From positions 7,421,603 through 7,485,602 of the forward strand of contig SSBO01000012.1 in NCBI GenBank assembly GCA_005281725.1: 64,000 bases of DNA, read 5' to 3'. The translations under genes were made by a program, and so were the position numbers. This document shows, one piece after another, positions 1-41,114 of the stretch (position 1 is its first letter; each line of letters starts with the position of its first letter). The notes below the pieces were generated by a model that was given only the letters and a program-made list of their open reading frames with translations, did not search any database and had not been told where the DNA came from. Origin of the DNA: Wuchereria bancrofti. Lineage: Eukaryota; Nematoda; Chromadorea; Rhabditida; Onchocercidae.

Positions 1-380
1 CATGTTTTTCTTCTGTAGTTGGTGCTTTAGATATTATGGCACCGTATTCCTCGAGAATCTTTTCATCAGGTATAATAATATCCTCGAACGATTTTGTTTC
101 AGTTTCTACCAAATCTTCCGTTTTACTTAATTGATCCACAACTTCTAATTCTGCCGGAGATTTCATATCAATTACATGTTTTTCTTCTGTAGTTGGTGCT
201 TTAGATATTATGGCACCGTATTCCTCGAGAATCTCTCCATCAGGTATAATATTTTCGAACGATTTTATTTTACTTAATTGATCCACAACTCCTAACTCTG
301 CCGGAGATTTCATATCAATTGTATGTTTTTCTTCTGTAGTTGGTGCTTTAGATATTATGGCACCGTATTCCTCGAGAATC
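1..380 (-). repeat. In-frame tandem repeat, 58 and 49 residues
   Basis: Three copies of a coding unit start at plus-strand positions 1, 175 and 322, giving periods of 174 and 147 nt, both multiples of three. The shared core reads ILEEYGAIISKAPTTEEKH, followed by an IDMKSPAELEVVDQLSK segment. The second unit lacks nine codons found in the first. Bases are nearly identical between copies, so duplication was recent. The array may continue beyond the window start. Confidence 0.9.
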
Positions 381-1552
381 CTTTTATCGGGTATATCTTC
401 GAACATTCTTAGTTTTTTCACCTCAACTTCAAGACCGTTTGCAGGGATTTCTGATTCTGTCCCGTATGTTGTTGTAGCTTTTTTTACACTAAAGATTCTA
501 TCTTCTAGTTCAGCATCTGTTGAACTTTGCTGGTGTTTTTCCATAACGTATTCATAAGCAGATGCAGTTTCTGTTGTTCCTAGAGCCGCAGGAACGGTAA
601 TCACACTTGTTGAAACTATGTCCACCTTTTCAACGAGGCGAAGAAATTCGTCTTCAGAAGTTTCACCGCTTTCAAAGTTGCCTTCAATCCCAATTCCATT
701 CTGTTTTAAATCTCCTTGCTTTGTAATTTCAGATATTATCAGATCTGGATGAATATCTAACGTTTCGTACTGCATTTCGTACTGTATTTTCTTAGCGTCT
801 TGTCCATGCTTCACTGAAACAATGCTTTCTAACACTACTTCAAGTGGTTTTAACCCAGCTTCTTTCATGTCTTTTAATCCAGGTTGCTCAATACAAACTC
901 TTTCACTAATTGTTGTTTCGTGCCTATCATTTTCAGATACAATGGGCTTTTTTTCCATATTCTGTCGTTCTGAGGGAACTTCTACAACTGATATCCCTTC
1001 AGCACTTTTTTCTTGACCTTTTTTCATGGCTTCTAGCGATATTGTATCTACAGACTTCTTCTGTTCGACAAATATTTCATGTTGCAAAATTGACTTCTTT
1101 ATCCCCAAGCTCTTTTGTCCTAAAATATTGTATTCCTGAAAGTACTTTGATATGGGTTTTTCACCTAATGTGTATATATGCTCATTTAATATCTGTTCTG
1201 TTTGCATTCTTACCGGGTCTTCATAAGATGTTCCCAGAACACCCTTTGCTCTGTTACCCGTTTTTCCCTCCTCTAGTCGTATTACTATGTCTCCAATGTT
1301 TTCCCCAGTTAGTCTTCTTCCGACTTCAGTTGCAGTCTTCCCATCCCTTTGATCTCCCTTTCTACCCCTTAATCCAACTCCATGTCTTGACGATTGCTGT
1401 TGCCCTACATCACATATCTCCTTTTTTACACATTCCTCCAATTGTATCTGCAAGATTTCAACAGCATTCCGTTCAGTTTCATTATGCTTACAATTCAACT
1501 CTTCTTTCAAGTGTTTTTCTAATCTCTTCGTTTTCCACTCCAATAGGTATTA
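1..1552 (-). CDS. unc-44: Open distal block of the unc-44 giant exon, running off the window
   Basis: On the minus strand a frame opens after TAA at about 1556 (YLLEWKTKRLEKHLKEEL) and stays open for more than 500 codons to base 1, ending in a tandem repeat. It overlaps the preceding open block by about 65 nt in a different frame, so one skipped base would join them. The composition is E/K/I/T-rich with no recognised domain. An open frame of this length in AT-rich DNA implies recent or current selection, in contrast to the broken 2.4-5.8 kb part. Confidence 0.6.
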
Positions 1553-2402
1553 AACTTATTGCTGTTTCTGTAGCATTAAAAGGACAATATGCTGTTAATA
1601 AATATTTGTCATCGAAATTTGATTCTTCAGTACCACTAGCACTTCCCTTCCCTTCTTTAGGCCACATCTGATTTTCGCTTGGACGATCAAGGTAGAAGTA
1701 TTGATTTGTACCGTCTTTTTTCTCCATACTGTTTGTCAGCTTCCAGGAAATCATGCTCTTTCTTGTTGCATCAATCTTATTATCTTCCGAATAATTCTCA
1801 ATCATTCCATACTGTTCACCTGCAACGCCTTTTATAGGTCTGTCATCTTTTATTACTTGTCTCCTCTCGCTTTTATCGGATTTTCTACACAGTATATCCA
1901 CGTCCCCAATATCAGGATCCAATTCAAGACTTGCTTCATTCACATGTCTAATATCAGCGGTATCCCATATTTTGTCTATTTCTTTCCATTCCCTTTCTTC
2001 ATCTTCCATTTTCCCCTTTTGCGACCAGTCATAAATAGCAATCGTATTATTGTATGAAGGTGAAAGTCCACTCAAATCTTCACACCACTTTTTTCCATTA
2101 TTTAAAGAAATGAATCCAGCACTGGCGTTTGACTTTTCTTCACTTCCTTTCATGTTCTTTATTTTCATATCTACTAACTGAAAATCTGGCAGCCTTTGTG
2201 AACTTTCAGCTTCTTTTGGGATATTTCTTGATATCATTTCAATATTTCTTGACCAACGTTCTGAAATCCCCTCAACGGCTTCCTCGAATCTCAGTTCTAA
2301 ATCAGACTGGTCTTTTAAAAACGTCTGCTGAGACTTTTCATCATCCTCGTTCATCATAACGTCTTGTTTTCCTTCCAAAGTAAGTGTTTCACTAATCTCC
2401 AT
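1488..2402 (-). CDS. unc-44: Open 304-codon block of the unc-44 giant exon
   Basis: A continuous frame runs from MEISETLTLEGKQDV to RKTLERRVEL and TAA at 1488-1490. It is acidic and lysine-rich with no hydrophobic segment, like a disordered cytoskeletal tail. Upstream the same protein sense continues in another frame (KWSEMEKSVQEVLISAVEK) across an A6 run near 2440. The ATG at 2402 need not be a true start. It is best read as a preserved piece of the giant exon, or as a smaller exon reached by an unseen splice. Confidence 0.5.
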   Translation of the reverse strand: MEISETLTLEGKQDVMMNEDDEKSQQTFLKDQSDLELRFEEAVEGISERWSRNIEMISRNIPKEAESSQRLPDFQLVDMKIKNMKGSEEKSNASAGFISLNNGKKWCEDLSGLSPSYNNTIAIYDWSQKGKMEDEEREWKEIDKIWDTADIRHVNEASLELDPDIGDVDILCRKSDKSERRQVIKDDRPIKGVAGEQYGMIENYSEDNKIDATRKSMISWKLTNSMEKKDGTNQYFYLDRPSENQMWPKEGKGSASGTEESNFDDKYLLTAYCPFNATETAISLIPIGVENEEIRKTLERRVEL

Positions 2403-5400
2403 TCCTGATCTTTTTCCTGTAAATTCAATTTGCTCTAAAAATCCTTTTTTCTACAGCAGATATTAAAACTTCTTGCACTGATTTTTCCATTTCTGACCAT
2501 TTTGTATGAAGCGCGGGACACTCTTCCAATTTATCAAGTTCCTTCCTTATGATTACCGCACTTTTAGTATCCCATTCTTTATCCATTTTAACCGTTAATT
2601 CGAGACAGTCAGATGTCTATTCATGCTCTCTTTTTACTGTATCACGAAACACACTATCGGAATGTAATATTTTTATACAAATCTTTTCCTCTACTGTTTC
2701 GATTTCTAGCTTTTCCTCTATCGTTCTTGAGAGTTCCAAGTCCACTTCTTTATACGGAAATCTAGATAATTCCCTTCTTTCAATCAGAATTTCTGATCTT
2801 TCTGAAATACTTTCTCTGGAATTTTCAGAATAAGATCGATCTACACAAATTTCACCATTTCTTCTCATACTTTCATCCTATTCGTTCATTAAATGTTACT
2901 CTATTTTCTCACGACACCCGTGCGGTGTCCTGGAAACTTCCGTTTTCTCTGATTTTATAGATCGTATTCCTTCATTTGGAATCTTCTCTACTTGCTCTAC
3001 TTCGTCGTTTGAGCACTCTACTTTGATTTGCCGCAATTTTATGTCTTTTTCCTCTTCACTTTTTTTTACTGCAACTTTTATAGAGTTCTTTACAAGTTCC
3101 TTTTTGTAACTGATCATCTTCGTTGCCCATTTCATCATAATTAAGTATATACATAGATGTTATGTTTGCTTCTTCCATCCTCTTTTCCTGTTTTTGAAAC
3201 AAACCGGTCGACGACACACTGCTTGAAGAAATACATGGTTGCACACCATCAATTTTTTTGGAGCACTGATCCGAAAGTAGCTTTAAAGAGGTGATTCAAA
3301 GATATCTTCGACAAAACCTTTTATGAAAGGAGATGTTCTTTTCAGCGAGTTTTGCACTTCATTATTTTTTAAAATGTCCTCATAGTTTTTGCTTTCGTCT
3401 TCATCTCTGTGACCTCCTATAATTAACCCTTTCTGCTGCTTTATATGAACTGTTTCTTTTTTATTCTTAAAACCACTATCGATTGTCAATCAAATATTCA
3501 GAAACAACCTCTTTCTCTATTAGTAAGGTTTCTTTTTCAGTTTTTCCCTCTTTATCTCTCGGAATTTTCGGAATTACAGGCATGTTGTCCTCTTTCTTAT
3601 CGAGCTTTGGAGATTTTTTGTGCGAATGGATTTTCTTCCTCTTCAAACTTCATACTGCGAATTCGATCTTTGTTTGGCTAACATCTACCAGTTTCTCAAC
3701 TGGAGCCAGTACACATAATTCAGGCGTAGTTACTTGATTCTTCAGCTACTACATCTAGTGCTTCATTAATTACAAAACTTCCATCCCCTTCAGCTCTTCG
3801 ATTCGTTGGCATTTCCTCTTTGATACAAATTCTCGTCCTTCCCGGCTCATGATGTGCTTGTGCTTTCCCTTCTACAGTAATCTCTGTATCTTTAGTTGCG
3901 TAATCCCCTACTTCTGGATGTATGGAAGGAAGCCTTGTTTCGTTATCCTCAAGCTTATACATTTGCATTTGCGAAATTCTTGGAAAGATGGACAGTTCAT
4001 CTATGACTTTTTCGAAAGTGAACAGCGAACAGTAATGGTCTTTTTTTATGTTTCGTTTTGTCTTCCATTTCATTAAATTGTTTTTCTCTTCGCAAGACGA
4101 TCATTTTTGGTTTATCCATTTCGCCTTCCTGAAATTGAGGGTTTGCATCTTTAAGCAACCACTCTAACTGAATATCTTGTGTGTAATACACCTCTTCTTT
4201 TTCTTGCTGTTTCCCTCCATTGATAATCTATATTGCTCTTTCTGCAACTGCGGTGGATGTTTCTTTTCCTGAAACAATTCCAACTTCTCTTTTCGGTAAT
4301 ACAGCCTTTTCATTGGTTTTTGTCAACCCTACTTTACCTTCTCCCGTCTCTAACTGCATTACAATATCAAAATTAATTCCATTCTTTTCTCCCTTTTTCT
4401 CGAAAGCTTCCACTGACATAAGCTCCTCGAACTCTTCTGCTTGTCGCGAAATTGGCTCCAAAGCGGTCGTTAGTTCTTTGTTAGGTTTACAAATTAGCTG
4501 CTTATCTAGCACTGGTCTTTCGTCTTCGTCATATACAACTTTATATATTCCTCGCTCATGTCGTTCAGTAGGCAAGCCGTATATGTTTTTAACCGTTATC
4601 ATCTGCGACAATGCAGATGGTTTCTTATGTTACTCATTGAGATCTTTCTCTTGAGCCATACTCATTATGTCTCCCCCTGCTTTTAATTTTTCCGGTTGTA
4701 AAATCTCTTTACTTATTCCAATCTTTACTACAGATGATTCTTTTCGCTTAATTTTTGCTTCAACAGGTGATACCTTCAATATATTTGCTTCTTTAAGCAA
4801 GCCATTTCCCATAACTTCTCTAGTCTGAAAAGGGTGGTTCTTTTGATTTGATTCTATGCGGTATTCCATTTTCCCTGATCATTCCAACTTTACATTCTTT
4901 CTTTTTAATATTTCCAGTTAATCCATCAAGAAAAGCTGTAGATTTCTTCGTAGGTTTCTCCAGCAATACACTTGTGATGTTCACTTCATCAGACAGTAAT
5001 ACTTTAGGTTTGCTCATTCCTTTATACAGGACAGTCACACTAGCAGATGTTGCTGCAAATGTATAACAGCTAACACCCTTACTCGGGTATTCTTCACCTT
5101 TCACCATCCGAGTATATATCACCTTTCCTAGTTAATTCTTCAGAAAGCATGCATTCATTTCTCTTGAACTTCAGTTTTTTCATAGGAAGTCCTTTAATAT
5201 GCTGTAATATAAGTGTTTTATCTTTTACAGTTTCGTTTTCCAGGAGAACCTTTTCTAGTCCAAAGTATTCAGTTGGGATTTTTTTCCAAGTAGTACTTTC
5301 GGAACCTAGTGTCACACCTACTGAAAGAGTTTACTTTATTACAGAAACACTTCCTTTTGATTGGATTTCTTTTCCTGTGATTTCAAATTGCTTTGGAAGG

Positions 5401-7527
5401 CGTTTTCCGGTAACCGTACGTATTTCGTCCGCATCTTTCAACTGGATGGATTTCAGAACACGTTCCCTGATCTCATACTTCTTTTTCTTTTAATTCTGGA
5501 TTTGGCTGGCTGCGTTACTGTTTGTTGTAAATCATTTTCCGAAGGAATCCTTTTCTGTCTTGTTTCCTATGGTAATTTTTTTTGCCACTTCTGCTTCAAC
5601 TATTTTTTGGAATCGTCTTTGTATGATCATTTCCAACTTATTAGGAGGACCAGTGTTTGGTTTTTGTTCCCATCTAACCAATTTTTGCTTTTCTGTATTT
5701 CTTACGCTTTTATTAGCATTTTTTTGTTTCGTCCGTTTTACACCGACTGTTTCCAGTGTACCACTACATTATATGTTTTTGTATTCCATAACTCTTGGAA
5801 TGCCCACTTGATTCTTGCGTAGCTATATGATCTGGTTCATAATTGTATTTTTGGACATCATACCTGTCTTTTTGAGTTTTATTATACCTGCAATCATCAT
5901 TTCTGTCTTTTTCAGTTTCATTATACCCGCAGTAAGTCTTGCTTTGTGTTTTGTCACCCTGTCTACATGACCAGTTGAATATTCAATTTGAGCTAATAAA
6001 AATAACTTGCCAGTCTCTTTTGTATCGGATTGATCACTTTCCGGCTTGCAAGGTACTATTTTCGGTTCATCATGAGGTTCACTAGGTCCTTCGCGAAAAG
6101 GACTGTACCTCTCATGCTTTGGAACTTCCGCTAATTCTGACAGATTATCTCCCTTACAAGTTGAAACAAGTTTGTCATCCGTTGAAAGTGTTTCAAATAT
6201 GGCAATACGTTCCCTGACTGACCCTATCGTGTCAAGAGCACTCGGAGGTCGTTCTGAAAAAAATTGTACTTGAATATTGAGTCTGTCACAAAATAGTAAA
6301 AGCAGTGCATCACTTAGTTTAAGTAATAAATCTGTAAGATACAGTAAATAAAAGAATAAAAAAACCGATGAAAACGTACTTCAACTAACTAACATAGCAA
6401 ATGCACCCTGACATGATGTCGGAAGAGCTCTGAACATATGGAAATCGTTAACTGAAAATCTCAGTACTGGATGCATCTATTCGGGTGAAATAAGAATGAG
6501 TTGTAGTGCATTACCAATGTTTTTACTTTTCGTAGTTCAAACGCGTAGTACAACGTTTTATGCACTTAAATATTGTAGCAAACATGGCAGGAGTTAGCAA
6601 TTCTGAACCCAATTTGAACAAATTTTTATCATTCGTTCATTTAAAGCTTTTCAAAATGTGCTCATCTTAAATATAGGAATTTTTTGATTTATTTCAAATG
6701 CATTGTATGTATGAGCACCTAAGCACTGATAAGATCTACACATTTTGTGTCGCTGATTACATATTTGCACTTGTGTTTGTATATGCCTGTTGTAAGTATA
6801 AATACCACCTGTAATGTCTTAAATTTATCAAATAAAAGAAGTGGCTTTAAAGATTACTAGAAAGCATGGGTTTTTGATGGTACTATCAGTGTTGCCTCTG
6901 TGAAATCCCAGTGGGCAATTTGTGTTGTAAGATAACAATGACCCGGTAACAACAAAATACGGAAATCCATATTCCCGAAACCTTCAGGCATGCTAAAAAA
7001 GGGTACTGAAAGATGAAAAGGGACAATCTGACCAGCAGATAGATGAAACGAAAACTACAAGTGCAAGACATCCAGGCAGTTTGGAACTAAAGAGTGGTGT
7101 AAAGTATAGAGAAGTGAAATGCGGGAATAAAGAAAATAGGTATAAAGAATACTGCGATAAGTGGTTTTGATAAAGAATTTTTTTCCTACGTGGTTGTAAA
7201 TATCCCATAAATTAAATTCCCACATTCTTGGTAGCTCAATACATTTCACTCAGAACAATCTTATACTTAGTGTTTTTCAGAAGCTTTGAAAGTGCAAAAG
7301 AAAACTCAGGATTGGCAGTTCTGATTAATAATATAGCGTTGATGAGTTTTTCTTGACAGCACAAAGACTGCCTAACTGACCTCTCCAACTGTTTTCCTCT
7401 TTTTTTCTCCCTTCAATCACAAAAAAGATTCGATTTACATCTCAAGCATCTACAAACTTGGAGCCAAAGAAAAAAAACTATTCAAAGCCTACTTTCAATA
7501 TCTGGTCACATTATGGGCAATTTATAG

Positions 7528-13864: not shown

Positions 13865-16800
13865 AAAAAAAAACTAATATCTACATCACATCATAGATGA
13901 AACCACTCATGGTTAAAAAGTCCGCATCTTGATTCATTAAAAGAAGTGAAATACCACGGAATGGTTGCTCCTTTGGTCCTTCTGCATCTCCATCTACGCC
14001 ATAATATTCCGAGTGTTGAAAGAATGGTCCCTCTACCATTAGCTGCTGTGTCGTCACTACCTTTAAGGATTTCAGATGTTTTCTTCAACTTACATAGTAC
14101 TAACCAGAGAAATAATTCCCAAGAAAACCACAATTATGATCACCGTACTTCGGGGTAATGACGTCTGTCGTCTGCCTCTAGTGACGTGGATGACATTGTT
14201 ACTGAAGGCCCAGAAATATGTGATACGGATGTCCCTTCCAAATCATCCGGCTTTTCAGCCCGATTAATTTCTCGAACAACATCATCACGTCCTATTCGCT
14301 GTAACGCTGACCGCAAAACAGCAGCTGAAATTTTACGTATTTCAGAAATTACTATAAAATACAACTCCATTACTCAGAACATAACTTTTAGTCATTAACA
14401 GACCATTCTAACATTTTATTGTTGGAGTAAAACTTACGTGTGGCTTGTTCTTTCTTCAAAAAGATCCAAATCCGCAAAACAGTAATTGCTTCAAGGCCAG
14501 CTAGCTGATGCCGAACTTGCCGTATATCAATATCAGGTACTTCGAGCGCTCGAGCCAATCGATGCCAGTCGGCACCAATTAGTCGTGCAACGTGCGGCAG
14601 CGGCAAGTCATCAGGCTCAGCAGTTTCATGGAAAGCTCCACTGTATTTCTCCGTCAAAAGAGCTTCCGAAAAGAAGGGCTTTTTGGAAATCTAAAGGGTT
14701 AATTTCAAAAAAAAGGATAATAGAAATATGAAAAAAGTTGCGAAAAAAAGTTCATATGTATATCGCTTTCGATCTCGTGAATGTGTAAACATATGTAAAC
14801 ATATTAAAATGTTAACATCACAAAAGAACCTCTACCAATTTTCCACTATATTAACATTTGTTTTCACCCACACAATTTATATTCCTGTACATTTCTTAAT
14901 CTCCAGTAGTATTACCGGCCCAGTGTATTCCGGAAGAGTGATTGCAAGAGTGCATAATGGCGTCTGAGGAGGCAAATTTTCGGCTCGCATTTTCGGCTCT
15001 TTCATAAATGATATTCGGCCATCAGCAGCGGTTTCATTGTCTGTGTGAGCACGTGTCTTAAATTTAAATAACAGAGAAATAGAATTAAAGAAATCAAACT
15101 GGAAAAATACATACATATCCGAACTTTTAAAACATCGAGAATAGGTTAAAATCTACAGTTAGGGACATCAAAATTACATATACGGAGAGAAGAGATAGAG
15201 GAAGCTTACGGTACCTTTATCATGAAAGCAAGACGATTTTCTTGGAATGGCAAGAAATAAAGGGAAAGTTGATCGCCGCTTTTGGTTATTGGGAGGATAT
15301 TTCCAGAGAATTCCAAAAACTGATGTCGTCCACTTAAAACTTCGACATCTTTCGATTTAGCAATTTCAATGAAATGTTCTTGTTTTTCCAAGGTTTTATC
15401 TTCCCGATCATCAGTCATACAAAACAATCTAAAATTTTGGCATTACGTTCAACATTATTTCCGTCCATCAATTGAGTTTTGAAAGAACAAGTAACAAAAA
15501 ATTAATTATAAACGAACAATAAACGAATAAAAACGAACCTCAATTGTCCCTCAGTAGGGAAAGTTCGTCGAGCAAAAATAAGAAATTTAGCCATATACGG
15601 AACTGCAATTGCTTCATTATAAACTTCTTGTGCCATTCGCGCTGCATCCCGAGGAGTCTGGCAGTCCATCAACCAAAATCGAGCAGAAACAGTAGTTGTG
15701 AATGAAACATCCTCGCCTGAAACAACAAAAAAAAAAAAAAGACAGAAGAGAAAGTTAAGCTAAACTATGCAAAATTATAAATTTCCGTCTCACTAAGAAA
15801 CAATTTGCTTTTCAATAAAATGAACCGAAAAGAAAAAGAGCTGTTCAACAGACTAACCAGCAAATGTTAACTGTGTAGTTCCAGTAATATCTTCCCACTG
15901 AGCAGGAGCAGATCCACCAGTTATACTGCAGAGTAAGCGAAGCGTCGGTGGTTCCTGTCCTGGTTGACCGCTAGAATTTACAAAATTGAATAATATAAAA
16001 GAATGTAAACTACTTTACTTCTTTGTTCATAAAGGTGATTTAACAACTGCAATAAAGCAATACCTATATTGTGTTAACATTCCTTTATTTGAGCTTTGTG
16101 GTAATGGAATGCACAGCGTTATGGGTTTATGAAATTTGCGACGACGCGGTTCAACAGTTACAATTGGGGATACTGCAACTCTGTTTCCGTGTAAACGAGC
16201 AACTATTTCTTGTGGAACTGGTTGAGCTTGCACAGATACTTTGATCGTCTTGGTCAAAGAGCCATCCGGAAATATAGCCTAGAAGATGGTCTAGTAAGTA
16301 CGAAAATTTATAGTGAATGTAATTAGATGAAAAAAAAAATTGATGTAGAGCATTAAAGAAGCTCTAAAATGCATTAGAATTCTGGAATGAATTCATAAGA
16401 ACAACCTGTACACGAGGAACAACTGAAGAGAGTATTACACCACCTTCTGGACCAACACAATGTACTTCTTGCCGCACACGAGTAACGACTGCGAAATACA
16501 TAGGGAAATCGTTGGTAAGGATACGCGTAATTCGTGACGTATGCAAATCATCAAGCTGAGACAACTCTTCTGCATCAAATGATTCATTCAGTACCTGAAA
16601 AAGGTGACTAACTCATATTTCTAGAAAATATAGCTATGATTTAATATAGCATGAAAAAAAAAAAAATTAAAGAACTTGCACAAACCTCTTGTACGGCGTC
16701 TTCTGTTGCCTCTAGCTGATGCTCTTTCCAGTGTTGCCCATCATCAGAACGTAAAATAACAATCTCTCGCTCTCGCCCACGAAGTGATGCAAAATGTGGT

Positions 16801-19800
16801 ACTTCCAATATTACAGGACCCAAGAATTTTGCTCCATGTGGTGCCATCTCAAGTATACGCGAAGCAAGCGCTTCACCTTCACTTAGTGGTGGTGGGTGTG
16901 CTAACTTATCCTATAAATAAAGCATTGGATAGAAAACACTCCAAAAAAAAAAATAAAAATCCAACTATGCTTCCAAACTTCGAAACAAAGAGAAACAGTT
17001 ACCTTCCGAAGATATCTGCATGTGATGCGTGTAGGCTGTGGTGCTTTTCTTGGTGGTATAATGATTCTTACACCAGAATGCCGGCAACCACGCATTGCTC
17101 CTCCACGTGCGTCCACCATAAACGAAATTAAAAAGCTGAAACAGCACTTATCCTAATGATAAAACGACAAATAAATGCATAGAAGCCGCAAGTTAGTGCT
17201 GTCATTTCTTCAGTTCTGGAAGCTTAAAGTTCATCAGACGGTAGACGAACTTGAAAAGAGAACAGATGTGTAAAAGGCATTCAGTTACACCAGTGAAAGC
17301 GGAGCTGATTTTTAGTAAGCACTGTTTCAAGAGAAGTAACTGAAGTCGATATCCTTATAAAGCAAGTTATACTGATTTCCGTAAAAGTCATGAATAGTAC
17401 TTGAAGTTTGGGAAATTCATAAAATTAAAGATGAAAATAAATTTCTACTATTTAATTCAAGCATCAAACCATGTTTTCTACAAAGACTTTTTGATTTTTT
17501 TATTTCCTGAAATAAATAATAACTTCATCGTGCCTTTGATTCATTATAGCTTGCCAAGAGAGAATGTAACAAATATTGTGACCTAATTAAAAAGGCTGAG
17601 AAAAACTAGACCTGGACAATTTTCCGCTTTCAGATAGAAGAAATAAAAGAAACAGAACATGCCGTATGATACAGCACGAAACTAATATAACTAATATTAA
17701 AAACTCACGTTTTGTGGAGAAGTTTGCTGAAATAAATAATAAATTACAAAATTATAGATCGCATTTCATCAAAAAGACAATATTTTATGATGAGGATCAG
17801 CAGGACCGAATTTTGCAAGAGGAAAAATTAGTATATTAAATGAACCGTTGCAGCTGTAATAATAATTCACGTTACCTAGGTTGCACGGTGGTTCTTGTTA
17901 CTGGAACACTGTCGGAAAGCGATGCATCCAAAGAAGGGTCAGCCATCGCTGTAGTAACGGGTTCGTGCTAGAAGAAACTTTGTTACAACCGCAAGCAGAA
18001 GCTTATATAAAACTATCTACTTCATGAATCACACAATATAAAGCGAAGACCCCATATGTTTCACATCGTCTAAAGACATTCAAAACATAAAACTGGGTAT
18101 GGCTATTCTTAGTTTGTTTTAATCTATTTATGATAAATAACAGAGCAGAGCCAAAGAATTCCTTCCCTAGTTAATCAAATGACACAACATAAAACACATT
18201 ACTTGTGCTTTGCGAATTAAAGCATCCAGATCGCCATCCGCACCTTCTACCTCTGGGCTTCTTGACAGCATCTGCAAATCCACAAAACTTAATCGATTTC
18301 CCTTGAAAGAGACTTCAATAGGCTTTGGTGTTCATTACGGGGATTTCCCTTAAAAGAGACTTCAATAGACTTTGGTGCTCATTACGGAAAGTCTTTTTTT
18401 CGCACCCATAACCGAAAGAGCATAATAAAATAGTAACGTTAGAAAATCGGAATTCCCACAAGTTATTTTAGAAATTTTCCTGTTATGAAACGAATTACCT
18501 TAACTTTGTCTCAAACAAACTTAAACTTTAAACAATGAACAGACCATAAAAACCTTGTAAATCTACAGACCGCTGTCATTTCAAAAAGAATCATATTTGT
18601 AACCCACTGAATAACCAACAGAAATGGTTCCAGCAATATGTAAAAAAATACCGGTTCTGTAGCATGAATCAGATGCACACCAGTTGAGTCATGCAAACCT
18701 TTCGTGAGGCTTTCTGAGAAATCGTGAGCATGAACATTGGCTGTGATCTGATTATCATCACCTGCAATAAACCTTTAGTGTATACACTACAACTACTTCC
18801 ACAGTTCAAGTAGGGGATACTTTAGAACTATTGAGTTTTTCGTGCAATATATGGTGATCACACATCTCTCTTGTATGTCAGATATGTCAAAATCATATCA
18901 CAGTTAACAGAGGCTGTTTTACTTCATACGGCATTTATTTATCTGGACAGCGCATCACGCAGGGAAATGAAATCATAGATAGTTAACAAATTATGAAGTT
19001 ATCCGATATAATGAAAAAATATAAGTTTTTGGAAACTAAAATTTTACAATAATTGTGTTAGTTGTCAAGAACGCGATGAAGGAAGACATTTTTGAGCACA
19101 ACGGTCACTGACCTCATATCCATCAACTTTTCAGTGAAATGACCTGTTAGAAGCGAAAACGGCACGCATGCGATATGTGCATAGATATGGAGTAAGAGAC
19201 GAGGGGAAAAGAAATGTATATTGATAGAAGGGAACACAAAATTAACAGCAGAGGCATTGACACTACTATATCATCTTGAATTTCCTGTTTCGTTTGCAAA
19301 AAAAGAAGGCATTAATTTTTAGAACCTCCAATTGAGCAAAGAATTGAGCAAAAACAACAGAGGGATAAAAAATCCGAATGATCATCACAATCGTTAAGGC
19401 GGTTAACATTTGCGTATTCTCGCTAGAATATGAAGTTAATTCAAAAATTCAACAGGTGAGAAGTTATAGTAACCTCTATTCATACAAAGATGAACGTCTT
19501 GCGGCAAACTGTTAAACATATTGCCGCTGATAAAAAACACATTGTATAATGCAGAAAGACTAACTAAGCCAGAACAGTAAAAAATCGACCCGGTTGTAAC
19601 AGAGAAAATTACCTTTGCACAAAACCAAGCTGCACAACAGCCCTTCAGCAGCACTACACTGATGGAGCTGTATGTACATGCAACAGATAGCAGTCATTTA
19701 GGAACCTCAAGGATGTATTAGTAATAGTAAGGTAAGCACTGTCATCATAACTCCTATCATCACCCTTAATAGCACCACAAACATTTATTTGCTACAAATA

Positions 19801-20203: not shown

Positions 20204-23200
20204 GGAGCATTCAGCGACACAATCACAACACTGCTAATCCAACCTTTGTAAGTAGTTACCACTCAGTACTTCGCTTACAATATTAATACGTTAATAGCAA
20301 GCAAGAGAATCGTGGTATCCTAATGAGCGCATTATTTTATATTTGGCAAGGAGTTTTTAAATTTCGCTTTAAAGCATATTTTTTCGCTAACAAATTTTCA
20401 GGTGAAATAAATGAAAACTGTGCATTTCGAGCAAAAAAATCCCGTTAATACTAAAACTTACTTAGCATATAATTAGTTCATCTAATAGTTGGAAACGTTC
20501 CTCTGAATCTATTTTTTTTTGATTAAAAGCCTATGCAGGTTTCTTGTGGCTGAAACATATCATCTGCTTGTTCAACTGTAATTTTTCTAATTTTCACTGT
20601 TTCTGTTGAGTCGCTAGGAATCTGCCAATCTTTCGAAAATTTTTTAGATCTATTACAACAATAAGGAAAAAGGGTTAAAAATAAAAAACTGTGTTGGGTG
20701 GGAATGCGTGAATCTTATTTGATCAAGAGAATATGTTGCATATTTATTCTTAATATGCACAATGCAACACTAGAAAAACTAAACTGAACATTTAATGCAC
20801 TGCTTTCATCATACGCAACAATAAAAAACAAACTGCAAGTAACTAATTATGTATTATTATTCGACTCGATTAAAAAATATAAATACCTTCATCTTCTGAA
20901 TCAGAAAACATAGTTTCATTCATTGCTTCGGGATTCTGAGGTTTATATCTTTCTTCAGTAACAGTTGTAGTCTCCGTAATTACGGTAGTCTCGGTAACTG
21001 TTTTAAGTGCTTCAACTACGGACACGTAGCCCAAACGTTCCGCAATTGATAATGGCGTCTGCCCTGTCTGTAAAATCTCAGACTACAGAAAGTGTATCTT
21101 TAATAAGACTGAGCAACCGCATTCTTATTCTCTCAAATACCAGTCTCAATAGTCTTACTACTCAAGCGTCTTCTACGTCAGCTTATCAAGAAAACGACAT
21201 GTCCCTTCTACTCAGCAACTTAATCAAATATTACCGATGTCTGGACATTTGGACTAGCACCGTGCTCCAACAAATAACGCACAACATTATTATGTCCTTG
21301 CTGAGCAGCTTGATGCAGCGGAGTATAGGAAGCACGAGTAGTGGCCGAAACTGGTGCGCCATGCTCAATCAAAAAACGGACCATATTTATTTGCCCTGAA
21401 AAGTTTTCAACAGTACAATTCGTCTAACACACATGAACAGAAATTCATTAAAGAAATCGAACCGAAATGGCAAGCAACGTGTAGTGGTGTATATCCTGCT
21501 TTCGTTTTGGGATCAGTGGCTGCGTTTTCCTTCACCAGTTCTTCTGCTACATTAACACGATCTTCCTGTGCACATAGATGCATTGGTGTCAAACCGTTCC
21601 TTGCTTGAGCTCCGACCTGAAGTATGCAACAACAATTATACAATTTAATGAACTATCAGCAGTTTCTCAAGCTAATATGTTTAAAGTAATATGTACACGA
21701 CACACTCTTCGTCCGAACTATGAAATCTTTTTCACTTACTTTTATAATTTTCCTAAAGCCTACCTTTGCTCCATTTTCGATTAATAAAGCAGCCATTTCG
21801 CGATGACCCTCTTGGGCAGAAAGATGAAGAGGCGTGAATCCAGCTTTGCTTTCAGCATTCGCATTTGCCTTAAAGAAAAATCAATATGCCAAAAATAGCA
21901 ACAGTCATCTACTTTTATACAATCTATACAAGTAAAATCTTACTTCAACCAATGTATGAAGATTTGATTCAAATAAAACACGAGAAAATTACAGATTCAT
22001 GTAACTAGATATGTCTCAACGCAAGAAAATACATAGTAATGAGGTACTCTATAATGAAGAAGAGTGCTAGCAATATCCATCTGATTCTTCTTTGCGGCAA
22101 TATGCAAAGGAGTATAACCATTCTTGGCAGCGGCATGTGCGGAAGCACCACTTTCTAGAAGCAGCAACGCTACCTTGTCGTTATTATAATGTGCTGCTAC
22201 ATGCAAAGGTGTCACCTAAAATGATAAAACGATAGAGCGATATTTAAAAATTATTTGTATATAAAATGTTTTCCCTAAACGCACGCATAGCAAAATTCAT
22301 CAATAAACTAACAACCGCTACCTGGTTCTTGCCTTCAATGTCAACCAAAGTTCCTCGTTCCAGCAGTAATTTCGCTACCGGCAAATTGCCGTATTTAGCA
22401 GCTAAATGCAACGGTGTAAAACCTTTCTTGGTGAGCAATGTCTTATCGGTACTATGATCCATCAATATTGCCGCCACCTCTTCTTGTCCCTCCTACAATA
22501 TTTGAAAACTGAATAATTTACAGGCTCCAGATCAAAAAGGCGCAAATATTTTCCATGTTCCATTAAGCTTACTTTGGCAGCAATATGAAGAGGAGTGTAG
22601 AGATCCCGTGTAGCAGCATTTGGTGATGCGCCTGCCTGCAGCAACAAGATGACGATGTCAGTATTGCCAAGACGTGATGCAATGTGTAACGGTGTTTGTA
22701 GCTCACGTGCCGCAGCATCCACCTTTAAAAAAATATCAAAAAATGAAATTTGCATTATAATTATGACTAATTATGGTAAAGTTCCTTTGATATTTACATG
22801 ATCACACACAGAATGAACAATGTTTGCAAAATTTTTTTTGAGAAATATGGACTGAAGAATGTTCTGGTATGAAGCGAGAAATGACGGACCCTACAAAGTA
22901 GTTATAAATAAGAATAGTACGGCGTGTCGACTAACCTGGGCTCCATTACGCACCAAAACACGGACAATATCGGTCTGGTTCGCTCGTGCAGCTAAATGAA
23001 GAGGTGTTTCACCGCGTACTGTAGCCACATCCGCATTAGCACCCTGAAATGAAAGGTTATTGACACGTCATTCCCTTCTCCGCAAAAATCTTGCATAACC
23101 TCACAATAAGTACTCTTAATTAGATTATGTCAGTTTTGGTATTGTTTATGAAAAACAGACTCAGCGAACAAAAAAATAAATAAAACGTAAAGATTACTAT

Positions 23201-26200
23201 TTACTCTGATGGGTAAATATAATACAAGGTAAGATTAGACAACAATGAAATAAAAAACAAGTAAAATTAGAAATTATTTGAAAAATGAAAGAATAATATT
23301 TATTTTATTCTAAGAAATAATGGGAAAGTCCATAAAATGAATACCAAAAATGTACAACAGTTTAATTTAAAAAAAAATAAATAAAGAACGATCATCACCT
23401 GCTGCAGTAAGTAGATAACGATGTTTATAGCACCCATGAAAGCAGCGACGTGCAGCGGCGACAGACCGGATTCTGTGGTTGCCTCGATGGCAGCATGGTA
23501 TTTCAGCAACAGTTCGACAACCTAAGCAGTTACAACAGATAAATAACAGAAAATGAACATAAATATAATGCTAAACTACTCTGTTGCAAAAAAGAAATAC
23601 CTTAATGCGATTTTTTTTGCAAGCTATGTGCAACGGTGTGAAGCCATTGAGGGCCCGAGCATTTGAATCGGCATTACGATCCAGCAGAAGCTTAGCGACA
23701 CGAACATGCCCGCAGTGAGCAGCCACATGAAGAGGAGTGAGATAATCAACGGTAACATCATCTACCGGAGCTCGATGATACAGCAGAATTCGAGCACTGT
23801 CCACATGATCACCCTGTGCTGCCATATGTAAAGGAGCCAAACCATTCTACAATGTTTGTATCCAATCATCCTGATCATATTTGCCAGAAATTACCAGAAA
23901 ATAATACGAAAAACATGCTGAAAAAAATGCGTACTTTTGTTTTAGCGTTGATTGGAGCTCCTTTTTCAAGCAATAAATCAACAACTTGATCATGGCCTGA
24001 GCGAGAAGCGCAATGTAATGGTGTTAATAAATCACGCGTGCGGCAGTCAATAACGGCTCCGTGAGCCAACAACAACGAAACCATGTTTGCACGTCCCCAT
24101 TTTGTTGCGACATGCAAGGGACTGAATAGAAAGTAAATCAAATAAAATTTATTTTCTCACTAGCTGTTACTGACAACAGTGGATTCACTTGGGCATAATA
24201 TTAAAACATTAATCCGTATTTGATCAATGCTTCATACTTTCCTGTTGGGATTCTAATGAAAGTTCAGGGAGGTAACCCTTACATATCCATCCACTTACGG
24301 ACCAGTTTTTTGTCTCACCACATTCTCATTTACTATGATGACTTTTTAAGTCAATTGTTTTAAGGATATTTAAAATAATAATAATAATACCTTATGTTAT
24401 GCCTTGCTTGGTAATTCACATTAGCTCCCTTTTCGAGCAGCAGTAGTGCTACGTTCTCATTTCCATAGTGAGAGGCGATATGGAGCGGAGTGAAACCGCT
24501 TTTCGAAGTCACATCCGAATTGTGCTCATTCTGAAATCAATTTCTCTTAGCCTCTAGGAAATACACATATACATCCCGAATATCTCTACTTCTTTGAAGC
24601 CAATTTAACATGGCTCTTTTCGCATTATCTTTTTCAACAGCGACATGTGTAACGCTCGCAAGAGCACATAGCTATATCAGGACATTCTTCGTTTACTAAC
24701 AGCAAATGAATCATCACTTTATTTATGCACCTTAATTTTGTCATAAATAAACTTGCGACAGAGGTAATTTTCTTTTCTCAGAAAAGCATAATAAAAAAGG
24801 TGTCATCAAAATAATAGATCTGAAAAATTTTTTCTTTTAAGATGAAACTAACTTGAAGTAATAACGTAGCTGCTTTCGTATCATCCTTTTTAGCAGCGAT
24901 ATGTAATGCTGGCAGGCGCACTTTTCCACGTGTATCATTCTCAAGTAAGAGAGCTACAACACGATCGTGACCTTGCTGCAAGGCAACTGCTAATGGCGTA
25001 AAGCCATCCTACAAATAAAAAGCTTAAACACGATGTCACTGGAGACATCAGTTGCAGTAATTTAGCAAACAAGAAATCGTGGATTACGGTGTGACGATGC
25101 AAATGATATGTAAATGCGAAAAGTGGTCAAGCTAAATAATGAAGTCTGCTTTCCCATATAATGCTCACCAATAATCTGAAATATTTTCAGATTTTAAAAC
25201 TCTAGTGATTGAACAATAAGCTGTTTTAGAAAGGTCATAACATGACAGAAATAAAATCATGCAGTCGCGGCTAATCGTGGAAAAAGACTATTACGTAACA
25301 AATTTTAAATAAGTGAAGTTTAGGAAAATATGTCAGTGAAATTGTAGAAAAAAAAAAGCTAAAAAACTATTTGTGGGAAAAAACTTTCACTCAGAAATAT
25401 ATCCATATAAAGCGAAAAACGAAAGATGTAACTTTCTTAATGTTTCCTTTTAACGTTTCCTAGTTAACGTCTTCACGTAATCTAGAAAATATGACAAATA
25501 CCTTTGAGGTATGACATGACTGAGACATATTTTCAGTCCCTCAATCCAAAATAAAGCAACAGATGACCTTAAACATCATCTCTTTTCTTTGATCTAAATG
25601 CACCATAACAGAGAAATAGTAAGAAATGGGAAATGTTAAAAAAAAAATATATAAGTAAGCATCCATGAGTTCCCGACCTACTAATTTACCAAGTTTTCTA
25701 ACAGTCACTATTTTAAGGAGTACACTAATCAATGTCGAAGGTTCAGAAAATATTCTCACTTGTAATCCTCACTTACATCAAACGGTATTCAATAACAACT
25801 AGATGAAAATGATGGAAGAAGTTATGATTTATATATATAAGCTTGAAAAAAATTTTGTACGATGGCCCCTTAGTCAGTGAGAAACACAGAACAGATCTTA
25901 ATTAACTTTGAACAAGTTGTGGTACCATGCCAATGCTCACGAGATTCATGTACAAATGTTAATCATTCAAATTCAGGTAACTGGCTTACGATAAACAGAT
26001 CTGTTTCTATAATGTTTAAACAACAAAAAACTGAAAGTGTAAGGATGAAGTTAGAGTTCAGCCATCTGCCGAACACAGCTACTCACATACTTAATTCTCG
26101 TAACTGTAAACAATAACTTTTTCGTTATCTTTTATCATACATCAGCTACCTTTTGTTTCGAAAGAAACAGAGACGTTCGCAATTTGCTGCTGATCAAATT

Positions 26201-26977
26201 TAATATGATATTTCTTTTGTTTCATGATTCAGGAAGGAAGGAAAACAAAAAAAGATAGGAAACGGTGAAGAGAACAAACTTCTGTAGCCAAAGCTTGATT
26301 AGCACTGTGTGCAAGAAGATAGCGTACAACAGACTCGTGATTCTCTTGCGCAGCCATGTAGAGTGGTGTAAAACCGTTCAATGATTGTACGTTAACATTA
26401 GCATCATTTTCAACAAGTATTGTGACGATCAGTTCTTGTCCTGCTAATGACGCTATGTGTAACGCCGTATTACCTTTCTGAAAACATTAATGATGACAAC
26501 AAGGCTAAATACATTGTGCAGCAAAAACGATAATACGAAATGCAAACTATCAATAACAGAACGAAAAGGAAGAATCCACTCATATATATGTATAAATTTA
26601 ACCTTCGTAGCAGCATCAACATCTGCTTTACGTTTCAGAAGTTCGCGGACCACTTCATGATGACCTTCTTTGGAGGCCAAATGTAATGCATTAAGTCCAT
26701 TCGCATTGCATGTATTGATATCAGTTCCCAAACGCAGTAGTTCAAGCACACGATCTAGATTTCCAGCTCGCGCTGCTCGTAAAAAACTTGCACTGCTCTC
26801 GCCCTGTAAAATATCTTATTTGATTCTGTCTCACAGTAGAAGATTGATCAATGAAGGTGTACAATTATAAAACACTACTTTATTGGAGTGCTGACTATTG
26901 TCAGAAGGAACTTGTTGCTGCTGTGATTTTGGCACTTCTGCAGGCCAGCCAGCTGCCTCGACTGCAGGATTGATCAT
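8834..26977 (-). CDS. unc-44: UNC-44-type ankyrin, short-tail isoform
   Basis: Membrane-skeleton adaptor that links membrane proteins to spectrin; in nematodes UNC-44 organises axons and neuronal microtubules (family knowledge). Exons read here: 26879-26977, 26603-26803, 26280-26477, 24853-25008, 24391-24530, 23935-24121, 23601-23846, 23399-23521, 22936-23043, 22573-22722, 22322-22492, 22048-22215, 21764-21868, 21463-21616, 21235-21395, 20887-21067, 18652-18761, 18203-18271, 17876-17967, 17003-17135, 16686-16910, 16406-16594, 16064-16278, 15858-15970, 15539-15716, 15215-15428, 14916-15056, 14438-14690, 14149-14324, 13955-14060, 13753-13830, 13501-13655, 13024-13237, 10439-10486, 10016-10129, 8834-8979. 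They sum to 5,517 nt, or 1,838 codons plus stop, with every junction in phase. The start [10 protein letters not shown] is the first ATG after an unpaired TTTTGTAG acceptor at 27006, probably a spliced-leader site. An upstream 5' exon cannot be excluded. The least certain joins are 14060, 13237 and 10486. Confidence 0.88.
9150..9205. repeat. AT-rich TAA-type simple repeat
   Basis: Imperfect TAA/AAT units in the unc-44 intron between 10016 and 8979. Confidence 0.85.
10016..10129 (-). other. unc-44: Branch-point exon of unc-44 before the short and giant tails
   Basis: Encodes [13 protein letters not shown] followed by [16 protein letters not shown], a basic T/R-rich segment like the one preceding ankyrin tails. 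It leaves a single G. Both the short terminal exon (from 8979, starting GA) and the giant exon (from 6253, starting AA) take two bases, giving TTLPG-DLIRL or TTLPG-ERPPS. This is where the two isoforms would part. Confidence 0.72.
10439..10486 (-). other. unc-44: Small linking exon of unc-44 (48 nt)
   Basis: Flanked by ATTTCAG and GTGAAA. Read in the phase left by exon 13024-13237 it gives [16 protein letters not shown] and leaves one base, exactly what exon 10016-10129 needs. It joins the shared tail to the short and giant C-termini. Confidence 0.6.
10590..11356 (-). CDS. unc-44: Alternative C-terminal exon of unc-44 (255 codons)
   Basis: A long open exon follows a TCACCACATAG acceptor at 11357. 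Its phase takes two bases and matches the single base left by exon 13024-13237, giving [18 protein letters not shown]. It reads to [11 protein letters not shown] and TAG at 10590-10592. Joined to the shared exons the total is 5,976 nt (1,991 codons plus stop). The protein is hydrophilic with a short helical, leucine/arginine-rich part ([15 protein letters not shown]). An ATG at 11486 opens the same frame further upstream, next to a CCTTTTAG acceptor, so an internal trans-spliced start is the other possibility. No known domain is recognised. Confidence 0.6.
11773..11968 (-). CDS. unc-44: Possible alternative C-terminal exon of unc-44
   Basis: An open frame begins [20 protein letters not shown], has an alanine-rich middle and ends with KGQNVHE and TAA at 11773-11775. 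A phase-0 acceptor (GTGCGAG) at 11969 would join it to exon 13501-13655, which also ends in phase 0. The polypyrimidine tract is weak and no family match is recognised. It may instead be a chance ORF. Confidence 0.35.
13024..14060 (-). other. unc-44: Acidic C-terminal tail exons of unc-44
   Basis: Exons 13955-14060, 13753-13830, 13501-13655 and 13024-13237 follow the death domain. They encode [20 protein letters not shown], an E-run with [18 protein letters not shown], an [18 protein letters not shown] segment and a lysine/acid-rich exon beginning [11 protein letters not shown]. Phases run 0-1-1-0-1 without conflict. If the last donor at 13024 is not used, the frame reads two more codons (GL) and stops at 13016-13018, so this exon could itself end a protein. 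The exact acceptors at 14060 and 13237 are chosen on phase and are the least sure. Confidence 0.65.
14149..14690 (-). other. unc-44: Death-domain exons of unc-44
   Basis: Exons 14438-14690 and 14149-14324 encode a death domain. Visible pieces are [51 protein letters not shown] and [14 protein letters not shown], the usual ankyrin order of helices. The second exon is taken to start at 14324 because only that acceptor keeps phase (253 nt leaves one base, then two bases and 58 codons). A serine-rich tail follows and runs to HYPE before the donor at 14149. Confidence 0.88.
17709..17726 (-). other. unc-44: Candidate 18-nt microexon before the first ZU5
   Basis: On the minus strand TTATTTCAG is followed by an 18-nt segment, CAAACTTCTCCACAAAAC, and then by GTGAGT, so both splice sites are strong. 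Exon 17876-17967 leaves two bases and exon 17003-17135 takes one, so the frame holds with or without the microexon. Inclusion adds six residues and gives SKLLHKTFLISF; skipping gives PSFLISF. It sits at the linker-ZU5 border. Not confirmed by RNA. Confidence 0.55.
18295..18388. repeat. 47-bp tandem duplication in an unc-44 intron
   Basis: Two adjacent copies (18295-18341 and 18342-18388) of GATTTCCCTTGAAAGAGACT and the following 27 bases differ at only a few positions. They lie in the intron between exons 18203-18271 and 18652-18761. Confidence 0.93.
20172..20203. repeat. CAA trinucleotide microsatellite
   Basis: About ten CAA units in the large unc-44 intron between exons 20887-21067 and 18652-18761. 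Read as protein it gives poly-Q, poly-T or poly-V frames, which are not coding. Confidence 0.93.
20887..26803 (-). other. unc-44: Ankyrin-repeat exons of unc-44
   Basis: Fifteen exons encode roughly two dozen 33-residue ankyrin repeats with the consensus TPLHxAAxxGH..VV..LL..GA. Many introns fall at repeat borders, and most exons here are multiples of 3 nt, consistent with repeat duplication. The block opens with [15 protein letters not shown] and closes with [20 protein letters not shown]. It then passes into a T/E-rich linker ([13 protein letters not shown]) and an acidic SDSEDEG segment typical of ankyrins between repeats and spectrin-binding domain. No repeat exon contains a stop or frameshift. 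The repeats bind membrane partners by family analogy; no specific partner is visible here. Confidence 0.93.
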
Positions 26978-39463: not shown

Positions 39464-41114
39464 CAATCCGGACAAGACTAGTCTATTGGTGCACCATCTT
39501 TCAATCATTCCCGTACCGCCCACTTCGGGGAACGTTTGTCCAATCACAATTTGTTGATGGTGCTTTTCAACAATATCCTTTTCAACTATCGTCAAATCCT
39601 TTCATCAATGATACCTTGTTCTTGTCTTCAAAATTTCTTGATGACAGGCATACGTACTTTGTATTGACACATAACTAGCTGAGAAAAGACATACTACTGA
39701 TTTTTCTGTAACTTAATTATTTTCTTCTTATCAATGTATGAAACTATAATGCGTAAAGCGCACTGTGAAATATGTTACAGTGATAAAAAAAGGCTGATTA
39801 ATTGTAATTGATGTGCTGTACATTTCATCGGACACTTCTGCTAATAATTTACACATCATTGATCACATCCATAATCAAATAATTTATATTCAGTCCACTG
39901 ACAATATCCATAATTCACAACAACATGTACCACAACAACATCCATTATACCAACTTTTACATACTCCCATTCATATCATATCCACATCGCAAGATACATA
40001 TGTCAGAAAGTTATAGTTCGGTTTTTTTTATATTATAGTTAACAACCGGTTTAAATGGCTATTTTATGCTAAAATTGTACTTCACTTCCCTTTTCATATT
40101 TATAACCACATTATATCTATTTGGCCAAACTTTTCACTCCTAATGTTTGTTGATCTTACTGCATATTTATCACATAAGTGAAATCTATATTACTTAGTTC
40201 AGTTACTGAGCTATTTGACCAGACTACATTGTTCATATTCTGACAATTAATGGTATCACTAAAGACTTTTAAAGTACGGAATAAGAATGTATTAACGAAG
40301 TTTCGGCACAAATGTATTATTAGTGGTTTGCACAATGTATTTGTGCAGAAATTCCGGCAGTTAGTCTTTTTTGGACATCAATATTTAATAACTTATATAT
40401 TTCCAAAATGCATACTACCAAGATCTCTGTACAAATGGATTCACGTAAATATAAAATCATTTCGTTTCAAGCTTCATGGTTTTGAAAAAACTTCGTTCTA
40501 TTTATTTCTTCAGTGACAAGCTAGACATTCTATTTTTCTTCTCTTCCATATTCAATAGTTCGATTCCTAGCAAAGTTACTATATTGAGTTTTAGTTGTGT
40601 ACTAAGTTATTATTGTTGCGAAAGTTTCACATCAAAGGATAACTTTCCTTTTCAGCTTTTATTACGATGTTACGGAAGCTATTCAAACACCATTATACAT
40701 CAACTTCCGATGTTTTCTTTATCATCTACGCATGATAAAGAAAAGGTTTTTATAATAGATAGTGAGCTGAACGATCTCTTTTTCTAAACATCATTATTTT
40801 TATCAGTTGTTTTTAGAATGAAAATTTTTGAATCAGTATGAATTTCTGTGAATAAGACGCAAATAACACCAGTAATAATCTGGTTCTCCTATTATTATTA
40901 TTATTATTATTATTATTNNNNNNNNNNNNNNNNNNNNNNNNNNNNNNNNNNNNNNNNNNNNNNNNNNNNNNNNNNNNNNNNNNNNNNNNNNNNNNNNNNN
41001 NNNNNNNNNNNNNNNNNNNNNNNNNNNNNNNNNNNNNNNNNNNNNNNNNNNNNNNNNNNNNNNNNNNNNNNNNNNNNNNNNNNNNNNNNNNNNNNNNNNN
41101 NNNNNNNNNNNNNN

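Follow-up and report, generated by a model that had tools for sequence, protein, structure and literature searches.

In Caenorhabditis elegans, the giant exon of the ankyrin gene unc-44 lies in the longest open reading frame of the genome, according to the available part of PMC5135030. The giant UNC-44 isoform, AO13, is described in the available part of PMC7159925 as essential for neuronal development. AO13 links microtubules to the cortex, via UNC-119 and UNC-33, and its tail has blocks of serine, threonine, glutamate and proline (STEP), according to the same source. Here, we describe an ankyrin locus of the filarial nematode Wuchereria bancrofti. The window analysed is a stretch of 64,000 nucleotides (contig C12, positions 7421603-7485602), and the genome searched comprises 86.5 Mb in 108 contigs. 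We take the locus to be unc-44, as proposed in an initial annotation made from the sequence, since Ank_2 repeats and ZU5 domains sit upstream of a giant exon on the same strand. As in C. elegans AO13, a very long tail exon is found 3' of the ankyrin repeats and ZU5. Unlike AO13, which was compared by description only, the first quarter of the W. bancrofti exon is broken. Its tail is rich in glutamate, serine and lysine, poor in proline, and holds a tandem array with units of about 49-58 residues.

Our preferred explanation, held with somewhat better than even confidence, is that about 1,475 codons at the 5' end of the exon, after some 100 that remain open, are decaying. Selection on these codons would have been lost recently, with the tail kept open and a newer splice acceptor in use. 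Judging from the sequence, W. bancrofti has probably shortened or detached part of the giant ankyrin protein. Lineage-specific exon pseudogenisation, or acceptor shift, is a known general process. As expected for this process, one side of a boundary carries the lesions while the other is open. Unlike the general case, the target is a giant ankyrin tail, apparently hit by different lesions in two human filariae. The process is known but the target is unusual, and we found no paper on decay of this exon in the open-licence PMC literature searched.

The giant exon starts at 6253, after the acceptor TTTTTTTCAG, in phase 1. It measures about 17.5 kb, from 6253 to about -11291 (genome position about 7410311 on C12; negative numbers are beyond the window). 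This 3' end is probably at the GT-preceding position where the Brugia malayi protein BM18562 (hereafter P0001) diverges. Rather than a single uninterrupted exon, we find a frame that is broken from 5947 to 1520 and open from 1519 to about -11291. The features of the region, with relatives named by species and protein, are as follows.

6407-6476, minus strand: short exon 5' of the giant exon (ATG...CAGG, 70 bases, ending in phase 1); it aligns with the N-terminus of Acanthocheilonema viteae P0003 and provides the first residues of W. bancrofti P0006.
5948-6253, minus strand: 5' end of the giant exon, still open, after acceptor TTTTTTTCAG in phase 1; 68.7% identity to A. viteae over 99 residues.
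1520-5947, minus strand: tract of the giant exon read as decayed; relative to A. viteae it has 14 frame changes, and 5 stops are aligned, with the last breaks also present against Loa loa.
5823-5825, minus strand: first stop reached from the old acceptor, downstream of the loss of frame near 5947.
1135-1137, minus strand: acceptor-like CTTTCAG/GAA, with 1135 as exon first base, in phase 0; its use would lose the frame of the short exon.
1119-1121, minus strand: candidate new acceptor ATATTTTAG/GA, with 1119 as exon first base, in phase 1 as at 6253; P0001 resumes at the equivalent position, and the acceptor function is putative.
1-1519, minus strand: retained open tail, part of a frame open from 1549 to -11344, beyond the window (4,298 codons, including a gap of 2,905 N); B. 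malayi P0001 and Loa loa P0005 align.

Starting with ATG, the 70-base exon may open a transcript of the tail alone, as an alternative first exon. Separately, a 39-base tandem duplication is present at 5856-5931, near the first break of the exon.

The initial annotation had described a decaying middle of the exon, at 2403-5822. All six stops that it named are in the sequence (codons ending 5823, 5331, 4630, 2896, 2878 and 2617). A Viterbi analysis, trained on codon usage of the downstream open frame, called 15 frame changes in 6254-1490, along with 6 in-frame stops. These include a stop, at 4230-4228, missing from the earlier list. Frame-tolerant alignment of A. viteae P0003 with positions 6480-200 gave 51% identity over 1,742 aligned residues. 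There were 14 frame changes, from 5947 to 1520, and none from 1519 to 200. Five in-frame stops were aligned (5333, 4632, 2898, 2880 and 2619), again with none in 1519-200. Note that 14 of the 19 listed stops were set aside, one because it falls in the preceding intron and 13 because they lie in 3799-3205, where A. viteae has no counterpart. Against Loa loa P0005, two frame changes (about 2448 and 1520) and one stop (2619) were detected. Compared with homologues that are open, the tract is thus marked by stops and frame shifts, as a decayed exon segment should be. Hence, the reported stops and breaks are real features of the sequence, and 2403-5822 is indeed broken. The damage is wider, running from about 5947 to about 1520, and includes a break near 1520 that had been missed. 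Furthermore, the broken tract is not the middle but the 5' quarter of the exon of about 17.5 kb, with the tail retained, since the frame is open downstream. The stretch at 3205-3799 comprises about 195 coding-like codons; it may reflect an insertion, a deletion or an intron skipped in the P0003 model.

Open relatives were found by three protein searches. The first, with 516 intact residues against 3,552 candidates of 3,300-10,500 residues, identified two proteins: B. malayi P0001 (4,125 amino acids) and Dirofilaria immitis P0002 (5,140 amino acids). The second used the broken pieces and scored only the 7,987 candidates, of about 1,150-3,680 residues, with the most shared words. A single protein, A. 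viteae P0003 (1,953 amino acids), was recovered, and the match is well past chance level (E=7.8e-221). The third, with 643 residues of the broken pieces, scored 7,997 candidates of about 350-1,125 residues, and found W. bancrofti P0004 and P0006 and Loa loa P0005. Comparison with related worms had been proposed in the initial annotation. P0003 is collinear with the window along the decayed tract, as is P0005 for the last part only, but both are open across the breaks. For P0005 (869 amino acids) the frame is open over the last three breaks. It is encoded on a contig of 2,728 bases, of which its codons use 2,607, with at most 121 to spare. Consequently, there is room for no more than one very short intron. 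Short introns at the W. bancrofti breaks are ruled out as the explanation, given this limit and because the frame resumes directly. Readthrough or recoding is ruled out by some 20 breaks of mixed kind. Tandem or direct repeats (the tail array, and the 39-base duplication) leave the breaks unexplained.

Could the lesions be errors, of local assembly or polishing, within an intact exon? W. bancrofti P0004, from a contig of 5,579 bases, matches the window exactly over all its 563 aligned residues. The model starts at 2402, shortly past the break near 2442; it jumps a second break, between about 1640 and 1520, and changes frame there. Since this genome has one match to the tract, P0004 must come from another assembly. 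A gene finder has little cause to start or jump within an open frame, so we infer that the breaks near 2442 and at 1640-1520 are also in that assembly. Similarly, P0006 is 99.7% identical over 393 residues. This model bypasses several breaks by intron-like gaps, yet ends at the 4632-4630 stop. The tail of this exon has no lesion in the 3,317 codons scored, versus 42.7 expected at the rate of the tract (P=2.9e-19). If spread uniformly over tract and tail, all 19 lesions would fall in the tract with P=1.9e-10. Five of the 19 are stops, the remainder being frame changes, and this mixture counts against local error.

Two features favour local error. First, the gap of 2,905 N adjoins the window edge (positions 1-403 flank the gap, at -2904 to 0, which is inside the tail repeat array). 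Second, there is a mild excess of homopolymers at frame changes. Runs of at least 4 bases are near 9 of the 14 frame changes, versus 0.45 per random position; for at least 5 the figures are 5 of 14 and 0.19, and for at least 6 they are 3 of 14 and 0.06. Such an excess is expected from slippage mutation and read error alike. The lesions are in sequence with one DNA match in the genome, outside the repeat array by the gap, where polishing should be hardest. The clean part carries the tandem array, which would be the reverse of what poor polishing predicts. Hence, we judge the lesions real in the animal and local error improbable. The earlier view that general assembly error is unlikely holds, given open A. 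viteae and Loa loa frames, the P0004 breaks, mixed stops and indels, and the clean tail.

A different possibility is that the tract is a degenerate second copy, sex-linked or duplicated, misplaced in the scaffold, while the assembly lacks the intact copy. We take unc-44 to be located on Nigon element D. The available text of PMC7181701 states that filarial sex chromosomes include young fusions, which would suit such a copy, but also that most of Nigon element D is unpaired in filarial males, which would not. The single DNA match to the tract and the identity of P0004 to the window also argue against a second copy. Moreover, of the two ZU5 loci found, only that in the window has Ank_2 beside it among the 141 matches listed. 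We consider this explanation very improbable.

The initial annotation spoke of loss or remodelling of the giant tail. Remodelling, or uncoupling, fits our data; simple loss does not, as the larger 3' part is open. Downstream of the gap, the tail is 82% identical to B. malayi P0001 over 2,831 aligned columns. The repeat motif has 22 copies in P0001 and 67 in D. immitis P0002, so the length of the array seems to differ greatly among filariae. According to the available part of PMC5135030, long ankyrin exons change so quickly that their homology cannot be followed from one phylum to another. This might suggest that the whole tail is unconstrained, and that the open part escaped by luck. The absence of tail lesions, and the open frame shared with B. 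malayi, oppose this. Barring enormous differences in mutation rate along the exon, the lesion count already refutes it, and we give it almost no credence.

The decay appears young. The tract shares 50.4% of 1,190 residues with A. viteae and the tail 48.9% of 423; with Loa loa the tract shares 54.9% of 406 and the tail 51.5% of 431. Because divergence is no greater in the tract than in the tail, the tract was probably under constraint for most of its history. Given that 4.0-5.4% of point changes create a stop, the 5-6 stops correspond to about 0.02-0.03 changes per site since constraint ended, on a rough clock that uses the stop count only.

We return to the preferred explanation. The tract at 5947-1520 would have lost selection recently, and be decaying by stops and indels, with the rest of the tail still selected for an open frame. 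The working exon would start at a newer acceptor, 3' of the lesions. A simple rule picked six acceptor-like sites between 2470 and 900; those at 1135 and 1119 are 3' of every W. bancrofti lesion. Joining the short exon (6476-6407) to 1119 gives 157 codons and no stops, and joining it to 1135 gives 10 stops. For this reason, a shift to about 1119 is favoured and this site is the best candidate. Since its phase equals that of the old acceptor at 6253, upstream exons would still be joined in frame to the shortened tail. The decayed tract would then be removed, by splicing, as an intron.

Apparently, B. malayi took the same route, with separate frame changes. P0001 corresponds to the retained W. 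bancrofti tail and starts in the same zone, at the position equivalent to 1525. Its alignment with the window has five frame changes; parts of 1344-1248 are out of frame, 1215-1120 is skipped, and the frame is regained at 1119. Position 1135 is within the skipped stretch and 1119 is its end. W. bancrofti, Loa loa and A. viteae hold one common frame at 1344-1120. Thus, the frame changes here are B. malayi's own. At a boundary near 1119, the 5' side is damaged and the 3' side open in both W. bancrofti and B. malayi. The second and third searches returned no B. malayi protein for the broken tract, though the species is represented by a 24.9-Mb contig. On this showing, B. malayi may lack a long open frame in the region. 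Note that residues of about 61-105 of P0001, near the N-terminus, are off the shared frame, with an intron-like skip. The 5' end of this gene model is probably misannotated.

The same data can be read as gene fission. Here, the ankyrin head would be severed and the tail expressed, from an internal start, as its own gene. The head would stop about 143 codons into the giant exon, at the 5825-5823 stop. Both B. malayi P0001 and D. immitis P0002 are annotated as separate proteins beginning in the tail. At the 5' end, the acceptor at 6253 and some 100 codons after it are still open and best conserved. In-frame ATG codons are present at 1207, 1027 and 958, and the ATG-bearing short exon aligns with A. 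viteae. Set against this, a phase-matched acceptor is a simpler route, and very large genes are often split by automatic gene models. We regard fission as the main alternative, though a rather unlikely one. Doubtful, and a little more so, is the specific proposal that in Wuchereria and Brugia the giant ankyrin was split separately, by different lesions, into a head, which binds the membrane and is now a short ankyrin, and a free tail of about 4,000 residues.

Several points weigh against the preferred explanation, besides the homopolymers. Use of the acceptor is deduced from sequence, and one phase in three matches by chance. Proteins of the relatives are gene predictions. For P0003, the contig of 14.8 kb could hide introns, and the protein lacks a counterpart of 3799-3205 and has blocks absent from the window. 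Loa loa P0005 covers 2787-176 only. The lesions of P0004 are deduced from the start and the jump of a gene model. B. malayi was compared as a protein model only, from its start at the equivalent of 1525, and P0001 was aligned at a frame-shift penalty of 12 (15 in other alignments). Finally, global alignment puts the start of D. immitis P0002 at 937, in disagreement with tblastn, in which residues 5-52 match 1985-1803 (E=8e-4).

If the preferred explanation is true, loss of about a quarter of the exon would divide the tail into dispensable and indispensable parts. The needed part of a giant ankyrin tail would become testable by comparing filariae. If head and tail are instead split in Wuchereria and Brugia, the link between them that anchors microtubules in C. 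elegans neurons would be dispensable, or replaced, there. The data also suggest that public filarial gene models have split the locus and run partly off its frame.

Identification of the locus rests on profile searches of the sequence upstream of the giant exon. Relevant matches are as follows.

16743-17125, minus strand: two ZU5 (PF00791) exon matches of the ankyrin gene, E=6.8e-15 and 1.5e-8; a single stop falls at an exon edge.
21241-26779, minus strand: ankyrin-repeat exons with 12 Ank_2 matches, 11 above the family cut-off; 11 of 12 are stop-free and the remaining one has a stop at the acceptor.

The initial annotation counted about 35 unbroken upstream exons. We checked this claim on the 14 domain matches; 12 are stop-free and, by eye, the other two have a stop at the exon edge. 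The other ZU5 locus found, with two matches on contig C8, has no adjoining Ank_2 among the 141 matches listed (150 of 224 candidates were scored in the Ank_2 scan). The death domain, PF00531, had no match in the window and two elsewhere in the genome, though domains split between exons can escape detection. A Pfam scan of four open pieces gave no families at E<=0.001, and an Rfam scan of the window no matches at gathering scores. A gap of 197 N is present within the window at 40918-41114. Lastly, in Onchocerca volvulus, Ovo-unc-44 falls within a region that is a candidate for the response to ivermectin in Ghana, according to the available part of PMC5546710.

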